64,000 nt of DNA. Source: Yinghuangia soli. GTDB taxonomy: Bacteria > Actinomycetota > Actinomycetes > Streptomycetales > Streptomycetaceae. This document shows positions 54,124 to 63,459 of this stretch, piece by piece. Location of the stretch: assembly GCF_021502675.1 (NCBI RefSeq), contig NZ_JAKFHA010000003.1, positions 1 to 64,000 of the forward strand, read 5' to 3'. Made by a program: the position numbers and the translations under genes. The notes under the pieces are model-generated. The model searched no databases. It saw only the letters and a program-made list of their open reading frames with translations, and was not told the DNA's origin. Positions within the stretch are counted from its first letter, which is position 1. Every line of letters starts with the position of its first letter.

Positions 54124-54995
54124 AGCCTTCGGCCGAGGCCGGCTTCGACCACGACTCGCCGCCGGTCCTCGAACTGGCCCGCAGCCACGCGTCCGCGCTG
54201 TCGCGGGCCGAGCAGCGGGTCGCGGACGCGGTGGCCGCGGCGCCCGCCGAGGTGGTGCGCATGTCGGTCGGCGATCTCGCGCGGGTGTCGGACACCTCGA
54301 TCGGGACCGTCACGCGGTTCTGCCAGCGGCTCGGACTGCGCGGGTTCCAGGACCTCAAGCTCGCGCTCGCCCGGGAGTCGGCACCGGTCCACCGGCGCCT
54401 CGCCGAGGACGTCGAGCCCGGCGACAGCCCGGCCCAGGTCGCCGCGAAGGTGCTGGCGTCCTCGGCGCGGGCCCTCGACGACGCCGTGCGGCTGGTCGAC
54501 GGCGACGCGGTCGCGCAGGTCGTGGACGCGCTGCTCGGGTCCCGGCGGATCGTGTTCGCCGCGGTGGGCACGTCAGCGCCGCTGGCCGCCGATGCCGCGT
54601 ACCGCATGGCGACGATGGGGCTGGACGCAGTCTTCGCCGCCGACCCGCACGTGCAGCACGTGACCGCGCGCACGCTGCGGGCGGGCGACCTGTGCTTCGC
54701 CATCAGCCACACCGGCGCGACGCGCGAGACCGTCGCCGTCCTGCGCACCGCCCGCGCGACCGGGGCCGGCACCATCGCCCTGACCAGCTTCGCCGGTTCG
54801 CCTGCCGCGGCCGCCGCGGATCTGGTCCTGGTCGCCGGAAGCCGCGAGACGGCCTACCGCGTGGAGGCGATGAGCAGCCGGCTGGTCCACCTCGCGCTGC
54901 TCGACGCCGTCCATGTCTCGCTCGCGCTGCGCCACCCGCCGGCCCGGGACGCCCTCGCGGCAGCCGAGGAACTCCTCGCGGAACACCGGTACTGA
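54108..54995 (+). CDS. MurR/RpiR family transcriptional regulator
   Basis: A 295-residue regulator. The N-terminal HTH_6 spans residues 25-95: ALSRAEQRVADAVAAAPAEV, GDLARVSDTSIGTVTRFCQR, GLRGFQDLKLALARE. The C-terminal SIS domain (about 125-270) carries the sugar-phosphate site (GTSAPLAADAAYRMA, ISHTGATRETVAVL). By family it senses a sugar or polyol phosphate. It leads a three-gene operon with phosphatase-type enzymes (2-bp gap to the HAD gene). Confidence 0.93.
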   Translation: MEQYSKPSAEAGFDHDSPPVLELARSHASALSRAEQRVADAVAAAPAEVVRMSVGDLARVSDTSIGTVTRFCQRLGLRGFQDLKLALARESAPVHRRLAEDVEPGDSPAQVAAKVLASSARALDDAVRLVDGDAVAQVVDALLGSRRIVFAAVGTSAPLAADAAYRMATMGLDAVFAADPHVQHVTARTLRAGDLCFAISHTGATRETVAVLRTARATGAGTIALTSFAGSPAAAAADLVLVAGSRETAYRVEAMSSRLVHLALLDAVHVSLALRHPPARDALAAAEELLAEHRY

Positions 54996-57255: not shown

Positions 57256-57413
57256 GGGCCCAAGTCGACCACATTGCACCGACGCTGCGCCGTCTGCCGT
57301 ATCGCCGCCGCCGTCGGCGCCGCAGCGACCCTGTCCCGACGGCACGACCGCAGCGCACGAATGCCACCGCCCGGGTGTTCACGTTTGTCGGTGGCGCGCG
57401 CCAGGATGCGGGC

Positions 57414-59504
57414 ATGGAAACCGCATCCGCCGATGTCCCGGCCGACCGCGCTGCGTACCTCGCCGCCGTCGAACAGGTCCGCGCCGCCGCTGCCGCCTAC
57501 TACGGCGACGGGACCTCCGCGCTGGACGACGACACCTTCGACCGGCTCATGCGCGGTCTCGCCGCGTACGAGGACGCCCACCCCGGCGACGCCGTCGCCG
57601 ACTCGCCGACCGGGCTGGTCGCGGCAGGTGCGGCGGGCGGCGGGGACGTCACCCACTCGGTGCCCATGCTGAGCCTGGACAACGTGTTCGACCAGGACGG
57701 ACTCGAACGCTGGGGTGCGGGCCTCGCCCGGCGGCTGGGCCGCGAGCCGCAGGGCTACCACGTCGGCCCGAAGATCGACGGCCTCGCGGTGGCCGCGTAC
57801 TACACCGGCGGCAAGCTCACCCGGCTGGTCACGCGCGGGAACGGCATCACCGGCGAGGACGTCTCGCACGCCATCGGGACGGTCGACGGCCTGCCCGAGT
57901 CGCTGCGCGAGCCGCTGAGCATCGAGGTGCGCGGCGAGATCGTGCTCACCAACGAGCAGTTCGAGGAAGCCAACCGCATCCGGGCCGAGTACGGCGAGCC
58001 GGTATTCTCCAACCCGCGCAACGCCGCGGCGGGCACGCTGCGCGCCACCGGCCGGGCGTACACGATCCCGCTGTCCTGCTACGCCTACACGCTGCTGCCC
58101 GGCCCCGACGCGCCGGACGACGACGCGAACAGCCGCGACCTGGCCGGGCGTACGCACTCGTCGCTCATGGACCGCCTCGGCTCGCTCGGCGTGCGCACGG
58201 TCGCGGACACGCCGGTGGGCGCCCGCACGGTCGCCGACCTGGCCGCGGCACGCGACTACATCGCGGAGGTCGCCGCCGGGCGCGAGGCGCTGCCGCTGGG
58301 CATCGACGGGATCGTCGTCAAGGCCGACCACCCGGAGGACCAGGCGGCCGCCGGGGCCGGGTCGCGGGCGCCGCGCTGGGCGGTCGCGTACAAGTTCCCG
58401 GCCGTGGAGAAGACCACCCGCATCGTGGCCGTCACCTGGGCCACCGGGCGTACCGGGTTCCTGGCGCCGCGGGCGCAGTTGGAGCCGGTGGACATCGCAG
58501 GCGTGACGGTCGCGTTCGCGACGCTGCACAGCCCCGGCATGATCACGAAGCTTGACCTGCACATCGGCGACACGGTCACGGTCCGACGCGCGGGCGACGT
58601 GATCCCGTACGTCGTCGGCCCGGTGACCGCGCTGCGCACCGGCGCCGAGACGCCGATCGCGCTGCCGGAGCAATGCCCGGGCTGCGGCGGCGAGATCGAC
58701 AGCAGCCAGGAGCGCTGGCGGTGCGTGCGCGGTCGGGCGTGCGACCTCACTCGTTCGGTGGAGTACGCGGTGGGCCGCGACCAGCTCGACATCGAGGGCC
58801 TCGGCCCGAAGATCGTCGTACGCCTGGTCGCGGACGGCGCGGTCGCCGACGTCGCGGACCTGTTCACCCTGACGCGCGAGCAGTTGGTCGCCGCCACCGG
58901 GAGCGAGAAGAACGCCGACAAGATCCTGGTGCACATCGAGGCGGCGAAGGAGCGCCCGCTGAACCGGGTGTTCTGCGCGCTGGGCGTGCGCGGCACGGGG
59001 CGGAGCATGTCGCGGCGGATCGCGCGGCACTTCGGCACGATGGCCGCGATCCAGGCGGCGGACATCGTCGCACTTCAGGAGGTCGAGGGCGTCGGCCCGG
59101 AGAAGGCCGCCATGCTGCTGGCCGAACTGGCCGAGCTGGCCCCGGTCATCGTGAAGCTCGCCGCGGCCGGAGTGGACCGTCCCGAGCCGCAGCCGGTCAC
59201 CACAGCCCCGGTCGGTGCGGACGCGGACGCCGGGGAGGACGCGGCCGAGGCTCTCCCGCTGGCGGGTATGACGGTCGTCGCGACCGGCAGCATGACCGGC
59301 CCGCTGGCCGAGCTGTCCCGCAACGGGGTGAACGAGCTGATCGAACGCGCGGGCGGACGGGCCGGCTCCAGCGTGTCCAAGTCCACGAGCCTGCTGGTCG
59401 CCGGGGCGGGCGCGGGGTCGAAGAAGACCAAGGCCGAGTCGCTCGGCGTGCGGGTGGTCGAGCCGGAGGAGTTCGCGGAGATGGTCGCCGCGTACCTGGC
59501 ATGA
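57414..59504 (+). CDS. ligA: NAD-dependent DNA ligase, divergent (second-copy type)
   Basis: A 696-residue ligase joining nicked DNA with NAD. The Ia domain is short ([20 protein letters not shown]). The adenylation Lys is in [11 protein letters not shown] (KxDG). [43 protein letters not shown] and [16 protein letters not shown] follow. The zinc finger is [20 protein letters not shown] with C-x5-C at its end. HhH repeats and a BRCT domain ([16 protein letters not shown]) close it. The family start and wide changes suggest the accessory actinobacterial LigA rather than the essential one, but a single copy cannot be excluded. Confidence 0.9.
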
Positions 59505-59747: not shown

Positions 59748-59908
59748 ATGCCTATATCACGCCATACGTCAAATTATGACTAAAGGGACATATCTGTTCT
59801 TCTTGATATCGAGACTTCAAGCTCTGTAGATCCCCGTGCAGAGGGTGCGGATCCGGTTGCTTGGGTCGCTTCATCCGATTCCGAGGGCGGGCTGAGGAGG
59901 ACGCACCG

Positions 59909-62524
59909 ATGACGCACGCAGCTGCGGCAGGGGCCGACCCCACGGCAGGAGCAGGCGCCGGGGCAGAGGAAGAGCTCGGGTCCGCCACCCGATCCGAGGC
60001 CGATGCGGCCGCGACGGCTGCCGAGACTGCGGCCGTAGCCCAGGCCGAGGCCCTGACCGCAGCCGCCGCCGTCGCTCCCGGCAGCGTCCCCGAGACCTCC
60101 GAAACCTCCGAGACCTCCGGGGCCCCCGAGACCTCCAAAACCTCCGATTCGACCGGCGCGACACCCACGACTGGCATGGCCGGTACGGCCACCGCCCCCA
60201 CCCCGCGGCGCATCGCGGACTTCCGGCGTGTCCCGAGGACGGTCTACCTCCTCCTTGCCGTGGTCTCCTCGGTCTACGTCATCAGTCCCGTGCTGCGCTC
60301 CGCCGCGCTGCCGTCGATCCGCGCCGACCTCGACCTCTCCGCGGGCGACGTGGCCGCCACCGAGGTCATCGTCGCGACCGTCGGCGTCCTGGCCCTGTAC
60401 GTGGCGGGCCGCGCCGGCGACACCCTGGGCCGGGCCCGCATCATGCGATGGTCGCTCGCGCTGCTGGCCACCGGATACGTCGGACTGGCCGTGTCGCAGG
60501 CGCCCGGCTGGTATTTCGCGTCCCGGGTCCTCGCCAGCGCAGCCGCGGCCGCGGTGTTCATCACGTGCCTGGCCTCGGTGTCCGCTCTCAATCTGCCCGG
60601 CCGGATGAGCCGCGTCGTCGCGGGCTGGCTCGCGCTGGTCTCGACGCTGTACTTCCTGGCCGTACACCTGGCCCGGCCCGTCCTGTCCGCGCTCGGCTGG
60701 CGTACGACGGCGCTGCTCGTCGCGGCCATGGCCGCGGCCGCGATCCTCGCCACGAGCCGCATGACGCCCGAGCCGACCTCGTCCCGCGACGGACGGTGGC
60801 TGGACTCGGCGCTCGCCGTGTGCGCGACCGCCGCCGCGGCGATGGCCGCCGGACTGTACCTCGTCCCCCTCCGCGGCTGGGCCGACCCCTGGGTGCTCAG
60901 CCTGTTGGCTGCCGCTGTCGCCACTGCCGTCTTCGGCACCGTACGCGCCCACCCCGGAACGCCGTGGACCGGTCGGCCCTCGTCCGATGAGGCCCCCGCC
61001 CCGGCTGCGGCATCGGGCGGCCTGCCGCTTCGGGCGTCCGTCGCCGCCGGGGTGTCCGGCCTGGTGCTCGGGTTCGCGCAGTTCCTGATCCCCGCGGTGG
61101 TCACGCCGCTCACCATGCGCTCGGGCGCGTCCCTCGCCGGTTCGGCGCTGGCCGTGTCGGCGTTCAGCGTCGGCGGGGTCACCGCCTGCCTGCTGGTCCG
61201 GCGCCGGGCGGTCGCGCCGCGGACCGGCTGCTCGGTCGGCTTCATGCTGGCCGCGGTCGGCCTCGTCCTGCTGCATTCGATCCCGGGCGACGACTGGGGC
61301 GCGGTCGGCATGTGCGCCGCGGCCGCCGCGGTCGCCGGGTTCGGTCTCATGGTCGCGCTGGTGCCGCAGATGGCGGTATTCCTGGCCGCAGTTCCGCGGG
61401 CGCGCCTCGGCGCCGCCGCCGCACTGCACCCCACCTCGATCCTCCTCGGCGCGGCCACCGCGCAGGCGCTCGGCGCGGACGCCCTGATCTGGACGGGCAT
61501 CGCCGTCTCCGCTGTCGCCGCGGCCGTCGCGGGCCGGCCGGCCGTCGTCCTGACCGCGGCCACCGTCGCGGGCCTGCAGTACCTTCTCGTCCTCGGCATC
61601 GCCGGAACGCGCGACGCGGCACGGCCGGTCACCGCGATCGCCGTCCTGGGCACCGGGGTGCTCGCCGGAGCCGTGATGCTGAGCCGGCTCCAGCAGAGCG
61701 AACGCCTGGCCCGTACCGAGGAAAGCGTCGGGGCACTCCAGCAGGCCGTCCTGCACGGCATCCCGCGCGCGCTGGGCCGCCTGAACCTCGCGGGGCTCTA
61801 CCAGCCCGCGACCGACGGAACGGGCGTGGGCGGGGACTTCCTCGAAGCCGTGCACACCCCGTTCGGCACGCGCGTGCTCATCGGCGACGTCCGCGGCAAG
61901 GGCCTGCAGGCCGTGCAGACCGTCGCGGACCTGCTGGGCAGCTTCCGCAGCCAGGCGCACGACGTCGCCGACCTCGGCGAACTCGCGGTCCGGCTGGACC
62001 GGCAGATGGCCCGCGACGCCGCCGACCGCGGCGACGAGGAACTCTTCGCCACCGCGCTGCTCCTGCAGCACGCAGGGACCGGCGACCTCGTGCACGTCGT
62101 CAACTGCGGGCACCTGGCGCCGCTTGCGGTCTCCGAGGAGGGCGTCTGCGAAATCGCCGTACCGTCGCTGCTCCCGCTCGGCTTCGGCTCCCTCGGCCTG
62201 GCGTCCCCCGGCGACGGCCCCGGCGGACGGCGGCGTACCGGACGGCCGCGCCCGGTACCGGTCCCGCTCGCCGACGGCGCCACCCTCATCCTGCACACCG
62301 ACGGCCTCAACGAAGCACGCAACGCCTCGGGCGAGTTCTACCCGGTCGCCGAGCGCCTGGCCGCGGCCGCGACCACCAGCCCCGACGACTTGCTGCGGCA
62401 CCTCGAACGCGACGTCCGCGACTGGACCCACCACCTCGCCGACGACATCGCGGTCATCGCCCTGACCCGCCCGGGCTCCCCGGGAAGCGGCTTGGCCGCA
62501 GCGGGCGCGGCGGCGCGGTGCTAG
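59909..62524 (+). CDS. fusion of MFS-like membrane domain and SpoIIE/PP2C phosphatase
   Basis: An 871-residue protein. ATG 59909 has GAGGAGG upstream. Residues 1-105 are Ala/Glu/Thr-rich (ETSETSETSGAPETSKTSD). About 110-600 is a membrane region of some 14 helices with an MFS look (RSAALPSIRADLDLSAGDVA, VAGRAGDTLGRARIMRW). It has the DHA2-type helix count. The last 260 residues are a SpoIIE-type phosphatase with all acidic sites: GVGGDFLEAV, LIGDVRGKGLQAVQT, LHTDGLNEAR and HHLADDIAVIAL. So one polypeptide joins a transport-like sensor to Ser/Thr dephosphorylation of a cytoplasmic partner, perhaps an anti-sigma antagonist. Confidence 0.88.
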   Translation: MTHAAAAGADPTAGAGAGAEEELGSATRSEADAAATAAETAAVAQAEALTAAAAVAPGSVPETSETSETSGAPETSKTSDSTGATPTTGMAGTATAPTPRRIADFRRVPRTVYLLLAVVSSVYVISPVLRSAALPSIRADLDLSAGDVAATEVIVATVGVLALYVAGRAGDTLGRARIMRWSLALLATGYVGLAVSQAPGWYFASRVLASAAAAAVFITCLASVSALNLPGRMSRVVAGWLALVSTLYFLAVHLARPVLSALGWRTTALLVAAMAAAAILATSRMTPEPTSSRDGRWLDSALAVCATAAAAMAAGLYLVPLRGWADPWVLSLLAAAVATAVFGTVRAHPGTPWTGRPSSDEAPAPAAASGGLPLRASVAAGVSGLVLGFAQFLIPAVVTPLTMRSGASLAGSALAVSAFSVGGVTACLLVRRRAVAPRTGCSVGFMLAAVGLVLLHSIPGDDWGAVGMCAAAAAVAGFGLMVALVPQMAVFLAAVPRARLGAAAALHPTSILLGAATAQALGADALIWTGIAVSAVAAAVAGRPAVVLTAATVAGLQYLLVLGIAGTRDAARPVTAIAVLGTGVLAGAVMLSRLQQSERLARTEESVGALQQAVLHGIPRALGRLNLAGLYQPATDGTGVGGDFLEAVHTPFGTRVLIGDVRGKGLQAVQTVADLLGSFRSQAHDVADLGELAVRLDRQMARDAADRGDEELFATALLLQHAGTGDLVHVVNCGHLAPLAVSEEGVCEIAVPSLLPLGFGSLGLASPGDGPGGRRRTGRPRPVPVPLADGATLILHTDGLNEARNASGEFYPVAERLAAAATTSPDDLLRHLERDVRDWTHHLADDIAVIALTRPGSPGSGLAAAGAAARC

Positions 62525-62667: not shown

Positions 62668-63459
62668 ATGGAATTCACTTCCGCACACCGCCTCGACGAC
62701 GGCGTCCTCGAACGCGAGTTCACCCTCGGCGAGATCCCCGGCACCCTGTGGACGCCGCAGACGCCCGGGTCCTCCCCCGCCCCGCTCATCCTGATGGCCC
62801 ACAACAACGGCCTTCCCAAGAGCGACGCCCGGCTCAAGGGCCGGGCCCGGTACTGCGCCGCGGCCGGCTACGCGGTGGCCTCCATCGACGCGGCCGGGTG
62901 CGGCGACCGCCCGCGCTCCGCCGCCGATGACCGGGCCCGCGCCGAGATGCGCCGGGCCGTGCAGGCCGGCGAGCCGGTCGACGACATCTTCGAGTCGGTC
63001 GTCGGCCCCCTGGTCGCCAAGGCCGCGCCCGACTGGCTGACCACCCTCGACGCCCTCCTCGCCCTCCCCGAACTCGGCGAACCCGGCGGACCGGGTGGAC
63101 CCGCCGAACTCGGCGTCCCGGTCGGCTACTCGGGGTGGACCGCACTGGGCATCCGGCTCGCCGCAACCGAACCCCGCATCAAGGCCGCGGGCCTTTTCGC
63201 GGGCGGCTTCGTGCCCCGCGCCCAGCGCGACGAGGCCCGGCAGGTCACCATCCCGCTGCTGCTCCTCCTGCAATGGGACGACGAGGGGAACCCTCGGGAC
63301 CGGGCGTTGGACCTGTTCGACGCCTTCGGCAGCGAGGAGAAGACCCTGCACGCCAACCTGGGCGGCCACACCGGCACCCCGTGGTTCGAGGCAGAAGACG
63401 GAACGCGCTTCTTCGACCGGCATTTGAAGCCCGCCGGGGCGGCTGATTCCACAATCTGA
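62668..63459 (+). CDS. dienelactone-hydrolase-like alpha/beta hydrolase
   Basis: A 263-residue hydrolase. It has PAPLILMAHNNGLPKSDARL at the first strands, a nucleophile elbow VGYSGWTALGI (G-Y-S-G-W), a likely Asp in LLLLQWDDEGNPRD, and His in NLGGHTGTPWFE. It is soluble and cytoplasmic. It may form an operon with the phosphatase fusion upstream (143-bp gap) or be read from its own start region with the tiny ORF. Confidence 0.85.
   Translation: MEFTSAHRLDDGVLEREFTLGEIPGTLWTPQTPGSSPAPLILMAHNNGLPKSDARLKGRARYCAAAGYAVASIDAAGCGDRPRSAADDRARAEMRRAVQAGEPVDDIFESVVGPLVAKAAPDWLTTLDALLALPELGEPGGPGGPAELGVPVGYSGWTALGIRLAATEPRIKAAGLFAGGFVPRAQRDEARQVTIPLLLLLQWDDEGNPRDRALDLFDAFGSEEKTLHANLGGHTGTPWFEAEDGTRFFDRHLKPAGAADSTI

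Follow-up and report, generated by a model that had tools for sequence, protein, structure and literature searches.

A DHA2-like MFS module joined to a SpoIIE-type phosphatase in Yinghuangia soli: a possible non-transporting receptor

Introduction

The window analysed here, a stretch of 64,000 nucleotides from the actinomycete Yinghuangia soli (family Streptomycetaceae; contig NZ_JAKFHA010000003.1, positions 1 to 64,000), encodes a protein in which a transporter-like membrane domain precedes a SpoIIE-type phosphatase, and it raises the question of what such a domain is doing in front of a signalling enzyme. To our knowledge, only a few bacterial receptors derived from transporters have been studied, the best known being CbrA, which feeds a histidine kinase. 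An earlier note on this DNA, made from the letters alone, had read the protein as a 14-helix module of DHA2 type fused to a phosphatase with all its acidic residues, placed where PAS, GAF or HAMP sensors are usual, and had proposed that it couples efflux or ligand binding to sigma-factor control.

Architecture of the fusion gene

The open reading frame runs for 871 codons without an internal stop. Its features are listed below, with metal-ligand roles assigned by motif and by alignment with Rv1364c, SpoIIE itself standing outside that alignment.

59894..59900, + strand: Shine-Dalgarno-like GAGGAGG, 8 nt 5′ of the ATG (sequence)
59909..62524, + strand: MFS-SpoIIE fusion gene, 871 aa (ORF, Pfam, 25 homologues)
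59909..60220, + strand: N-terminal low-complexity extension rich in Ala, Glu, Thr and Ser, residues 1-104 (mostly missing in the homologues L011 and L012)
60239..61537, + strand: DHA2-like MFS part, helices 1-14, residues 111-543, end approximate (Pfam MFS_1, PDB profile matches, hydropathy)
60407..60439, + strand: MFS motif A, GRAGDTLGRAR, residues 167-177, in the loop between helices 2 and 3 (conservation in 26 sequences)
61538..61690, + strand: helices 15-16, residues 544-594, similar to the final helices of stand-alone membrane PP2Cs (hhalign, score mostly phosphatase)
61691..61768, + strand: linker from helix 16 to the phosphatase, residues 595-620, probably helical (conserved residues)
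61835..61837, + strand: D643 of GGDF, putative metal ligand (26/26; aligned with GGDW of Rv1364c)
61865..62470, + strand: SpoIIE/PPM phosphatase domain, residues 653-854 (Pfam limits)
61886..61888, + strand: D660 of GDVRGKG, putative M2 metal ligand (26/26; probable equivalent of SpoIIE D628)
62300..62302, + strand: D798 of HTDG, putative metal ligand (26/26; probable equivalent of SpoIIE D746)
62441..62446, + strand: D845-D846, putative metal ligand pair (26/26; probable equivalent of SpoIIE D795)

Both domains of the window protein clear their Pfam cut-offs, MFS_1 at residues 131-516 with 42.9 bits against 33.4 and SpoIIE (PF07228) at residues 653-854 with 115.8 bits against 25. The MFS (PF07690) and SpoIIE families are likewise both matched at E≤0.001 by all 26 aligned full-length sequences, a set made up of the window protein, its paralogue in the same genome, L011, L012 and 22 proteins from other sampled genomes, and containing many close relatives. 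A chance MFS match arising from composition was rejected, as Pfam at E≤1 found no family in any of five controls (residues 105-606, once reversed and four times shuffled in 14-residue blocks). The MFS-phosphatase fusion is real, as the earlier note had it, and the MFS similarity of its membrane part is borne out by the Pfam score and by profile matches to transporters in the PDB. The module sits in the sensor position, before an intact SpoIIE-type phosphatase, and, as in transceptors (transporter-based receptors), a transporter-type domain and a signalling enzyme share one chain.

Third-position GC is 0.77 over residues 1-88 (59909-60172), against 0.91-0.94 elsewhere in the gene, and these residues are of low complexity, with short repeats coding for ETS units. 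An AlphaFold model made from three sequences (window, L011, L012) had a mean pLDDT of 39.1, too low to be of use, and the fusion had no match in a defence-system library.

The membrane part: a DHA2-like plan and the join to the anchor

By hydropathy, the membrane part of the window protein has 16 peaks, with one more inside its phosphatase; L011 and L012 each have 15 such membrane peaks, helices 14 and 15 giving a single peak there. Averaged over the 26 sequences, with helix limits drawn by hand, the number of Lys and Arg residues per loop broadly alternates for 16 helices with both ends inside (0.7-5.8 in inside loops, 0.1-1.8 in outside loops), the loop after helix 14 being a weak inside one. 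DHA2 MFS proteins have 14 helices, two of them extra ones in the middle. Helices 7-8 and collinearity with the solved structures 8pnl and 7d5p point to this plan, yet the peaks number 16 in the window protein against 15 in L011 and L012. From about helix 13 onward, the fusion family can also be aligned to the stand-alone membrane PP2Cs (E 3e-112 by hhalign, a score that is mostly phosphatase, the membrane similarity being weaker), and the alignment of helices 13-14 to the PP2C anchor blurs the 14-helix assignment. The best reading of these alignments is a membrane part probably composed of a DHA2-like MFS of about 14 helices and, from a PP2C anchor, the final two or so, with an approximate join; the count of 14 given earlier suits the MFS part, while the membrane part as a whole has about 16.

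The assignment to the DHA2 type is likewise upheld in part. The family profile finds its best solved relatives in 8pnl (44.2 bits, profile positions 27-413), 7d5p (34.1 bits, 39-447) and EfpA 8x6x (31.0 bits, 36-401), all of which we take to be DHA2-type transporters, and the weaker matches that follow are other MFS families. In NCBIfam, the window protein has two matches to MFS drug-resistance families, both far below their cut-offs, and the sub-families matched among the 26 sequences are mixed (TIGR00880 in 9/26, TIGR00895 in three, TIGR00898 in three, Bcr/CflA in two and tcmA in one), with no DHA2-specific family model as the best match. Because of this mixture, the term ‘DHA2-like’ is taken from the PDB profile match and from the pair of additional helices in the middle; of the features expected of the type, the helix-1 acid is missing in 25/26 and the motif C glycines in all.

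Loss of residues tied to transport

Within MFS motif A (residues 167-177), G167, R168 and D171 are kept in 25/26 sequences and G174 in all, with variable trailing Arg positions; R206 in helix 4 is kept in 24/26, and P127, R206, R265, P320, W324 and D326 are each found in 24-26 of the 26. DHA2 antiporters carry an acidic residue in helix 1 and, in helix 5, the glycine pair of motif C. In the fusions, the helix-1 position (column 130), occupied by Asp in 8pnl, is Asp in a single sequence and otherwise Gln (11), Arg (10, the window protein among them) or Asn (4). Columns 255-257 of helix 5 hold no Gly in any of the 26 sequences, so that the motif C pair, seen at columns 256-257 in EfpA and 255-256 in 7d5p, is missing; as an argument against transport this is weak, since 8pnl, a transporter by its title, is also without the pair. 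In hand-drawn helix cores, acidic residues occupy any one column in at most 10 of the 26 sequences, and those limited to some copies include 210 (8/26), 268 (8/26) and 557 (10/26).

From these patterns, we infer that the MFS part has lost the conserved acidic residues for proton-coupled antiport and, with them, transport. The coupling to efflux suggested earlier is weakened because the helix-1 acid is kept in 1/26 and no acidic residue of the helix core is conserved. The MFS part is 34-44% identical to that of the window protein across the 26 sequences and the phosphatase 59-70%, a faster divergence that is as expected for a changing sensor over a fixed output. A tblastn search of 72,556 plasmid records with the window MFS part gave no match at E≤1e-3, and the MFS part of another copy (L038) gave one weak match in the same records, which puts the MFS part far from the pumps that they hold.

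Phosphatase domain and linker

D643, D660, D798, D845 and D846 are each present in 26/26 sequences, so the claim that all phosphatase acidic residues are in place stands; the catalytic acids are intact, and phosphatase activity is predicted. In SpoIIE, according to the excerpted text of PMC5468089, the metal site comprises D628, D746, D795 and the G629 carbonyl, and the protein combines 10 membrane segments with a helix switch. The linker (residues 595-620) has no HAMP, PAS or GAF match in Pfam and is among the well conserved parts of the protein, with R599, A609, L610, Q611, A613, V614 and L615 kept in at least 25 of the 26 sequences. An ECF S-component in the last helices was considered and rejected, as it scored below the cut-off and in 1/26 sequences. 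Excerpts on related phosphatases describe a helical linker that switches the phosphatase in RsbU and RssB (PMC12143880), and in RsbU-type proteins this linker pairs the phosphatase domains and repositions switch helices to complete the metal site (PMC12143880, PMC5468089).

All the sequences share the MFS part, last helices, linker and phosphatase. Many close phosphatase relatives in the family Streptomycetaceae match only from the last helices onward and bear a short membrane anchor, so that PAS, GAF and HAMP domains, named earlier as the usual partners, are not the sole kind.

Distribution and origin of the fusion

In named species, relatives were found in Streptomyces filamentosus (48% identity) and S. 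hydrogenans (56% for its best segment), at loci L011 and L012, and both proteins align across the whole membrane and phosphatase parts; an uncultured actinobacterium gave a weak match to residues 133-356. Of 41 genomes of the family searched first, three carried the fusion at full length. The count of such fusions that the earlier note called for now stands at no fewer than 24 full-length copies at E≤1e-110, in 15 of 394 genomes and 4 of 17 genera of the family, and may be too low, two candidates having been scored per genome. A class-wide sample gave, at E≤1e-80, one genome in 394, the window's own. The 24 sampled copies are without internal stops. The genome of the window also encodes a second, divergent MFS-SpoIIE paralogue (G000:C42:160-2364; L035, L050), which shares 45% of its aligned residues with the window protein. 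Among the 72,556 plasmid records, 49 match the fusion protein, in the matches listed only by its C-terminal part, and no place covers 80% of it.

A tree was built from the 26 fusion phosphatase domains and 18 stand-alone ones, the latter taken from 17 loci and not a census. The fusion domains form one side of a branch (support 100/99, found in 100% of 200 bootstrap trees) and adjoin three stand-alone membrane PP2Cs (L018-L020); as they make up a single clade, the join probably happened once. The pattern fits one fusion event, probably followed by duplication and patchy loss or transfer.

Neighbourhood and candidate partners

Of the 26 copies, 20 had their gene neighbourhoods retrieved and 19 were compared (all but L069), with seven genes on each side. 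No neighbour family recurs in more than 4/19 loci, and the most widely shared ones, a glyoxalase, an aminotransferase and a methyltransferase, occur in four loci of one clade. Pfam was run on ten neighbours, on two further ones beside L011 and L012 and on five window ORFs (54155-54992 left out), and among these no STAS, anti-sigma or sigma domain reached its cut-off; the partner anti-sigma antagonist sought by the earlier note was not among them. Across the genome there are 37 SpoIIE matches and, with 150 of 214 candidates scored, at least 15 STAS_2 matches, at least 12 of them over the cut-off and none within about 150 kb of the fusion gene on its contig. Sigma-factor control is so far a proposal; with such numbers of SpoIIE and STAS_2 matches, the genome does offer partners in trans.

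In the two named Streptomyces species, a short ORF that is nearly the same in both (L011:4262-4546 and L012:3592-3861) lies upstream of the fusion with one gene between. In S. filamentosus, where it encodes 94 aa, it reaches 18.7 bits for STAS_2 (cut-off 29.2); the S. hydrogenans copy has no STAS_2 score. As a possible STAS partner, the short upstream ORF is a lead only.

Other neighbours are recorded here as observations. The gene just downstream at 62668-63459, at first sight suggestive of an RsbQ hydrolase, was rejected as such, its only Pfam match being S15 below the cut-off, and the other fusions have no copy of it next to them. A LigA-like NAD-dependent DNA ligase (57411-59504) precedes the fusion in the window; at L059, the locus of the window protein's nearest relative in the tree, the ligase is again next to the fusion, on its opposite side. 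Beyond the window, about 3 kb downstream of the fusion gene, lies an ORF (L014:5615-7102; contig C23:65615-67102) that by eye looks like a Hanks-type Ser/Thr kinase.

Relation to known systems

Fusions of transporters to histidine kinases and of SSS transporters to PP2C phosphatases are already published; an MFS-SpoIIE version, which the earlier note allowed might be well described, was not found among the matches listed from open-licence PMC papers. Such a fusion may already be mentioned in the 2004 work of Zhang and Shi on Streptomyces PPM phosphatases and their recruited sensory domains. Stand-alone membrane PP2Cs (SpoIIE, PF07228), such as L018-L020, share the phosphatase and linker of the fusions and resemble them in the final helices, but have a short anchor (2-5 hydropathy peaks) and no MFS part. 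Conversely, 8pnl, 7d5p and EfpA 8x6x are collinear with fusion helices 1 to 12-14 and have no phosphatase, and they keep what the fusions have lost, a helix-1 Asp in 8pnl and the motif C glycines in EfpA and 7d5p.

Actinobacterial proteins, with Streptomyces among the hosts, are described as SSS transporters with GAF, PP2C_SIG and HATPase_c domains (PMC7918813); they likewise put a transporter domain and a SpoIIE-class phosphatase in one chain but have SSS instead of MFS and, unlike the fusion, carry GAF and ATPase domains. In the CbrA transceptor of Pseudomonas, a transporter module is also joined to a cytoplasmic signalling enzyme; there, the parts are an SLC5 transporter, STAC and PAS domains and a histidine kinase output (PMC13022988), where the fusion has MFS and phosphatase. 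5TMR-SpoIIE proteins, reported in the excerpt of PMC11109136, again combine a polytopic membrane receptor fold with SpoIIE, the fold being 5TMR (S-component) and not MFS. SpoIIE of Bacillus subtilis and RsbU share the PPM phosphatase and helical switch or linker, and SpoIIE has its 10 membrane segments, with no transporter-like part described for either in the excerpted text (PMC5468089, PMC12143880).

Proposed mechanism and alternatives

We regard it as somewhat probable that the protein is a transport-dead, DHA2-like MFS receptor controlling a SpoIIE-type phosphatase that acts on a STAS protein in trans. A degenerate DHA2-like transporter would have been placed before an ordinary membrane PP2C. 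Its MFS part, with fold and motif A kept, would bind a small, probably hydrophobic molecule, or sense the state of the membrane, and would not pump. Binding would shift the MFS bundle between conformations, helices 15-16 would relay the shift to the short linker, and the linker would move the phosphatase switch helices and complete the metal site. The active phosphatase might then dephosphorylate a STAS anti-anti-sigma protein encoded elsewhere, freeing a sigma factor. The steps that we infer are the loss of transport, the binding of a ligand, the route of coupling, the STAS target and the sigma factor. Against such a receptor, motif A conservation is also expected of a working transporter, the fast divergence of the MFS part could also reflect relaxed constraint without a ligand, acidic residues are present in the helix cores of some copies, and the neighbourhoods showed no conserved STAS or anti-sigma gene.

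The same evidence bears on three other readings. The protein might be a true transceptor, in which the MFS part still carries a compound out of or into the cell and the phosphatase is governed by the transport cycle. In favour of this, the MFS fold and motif A are conserved, the best solved relatives are transporters, of which 8pnl too is without the motif C pair, and CbrA is described, in the excerpt of PMC13022988, as both transporting and signalling; with the helix-1 acid lost in 25/26, no helix-core acid conserved and the plasmid tblastn nearly blank, we nevertheless consider this rather unlikely. Less probable still is an MFS part that serves as a membrane anchor, or as a platform for another protein, with the phosphatase regulated otherwise: low identity (34-44%) would suit it, and a short anchor is enough in the stand-alone relatives, but the retention of motif A, P127, R206, R265, P320, W324 and D326 in 24-26 of the 26 sequences goes beyond an anchor's need.

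A bifunctional protein with uncoupled parts, or a sequence artefact, is very improbable. Alanine-rich membrane parts may yield false family matches, but 25 further copies exist (many mutually close), the controls were negative and the phosphatases form one clade; the artefact reading is refuted because the copies recur. Our preferred account remains the transport-dead receptor. Its fuller form, in which an MFS drug pump became a non-transporting receptor in direct control of a protein phosphatase and gave rise to a one-chain switch from small molecule to sigma factor, with the MFS bundle replacing PAS, GAF or HAMP and acting via the last helix, is plausible but falls a little short of probable.

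Implications

If the receptor reading is true, the protein would be an MFS-based receptor feeding a Ser/Thr phosphatase, and it would offer a natural test of how a conformational change in an MFS bundle is read out by the helical switch of a PPM phosphatase. If used in this way by Streptomyces and its kin, it could allow them to sense their own or their neighbours' lipophilic metabolites and may switch a sigma factor in response.
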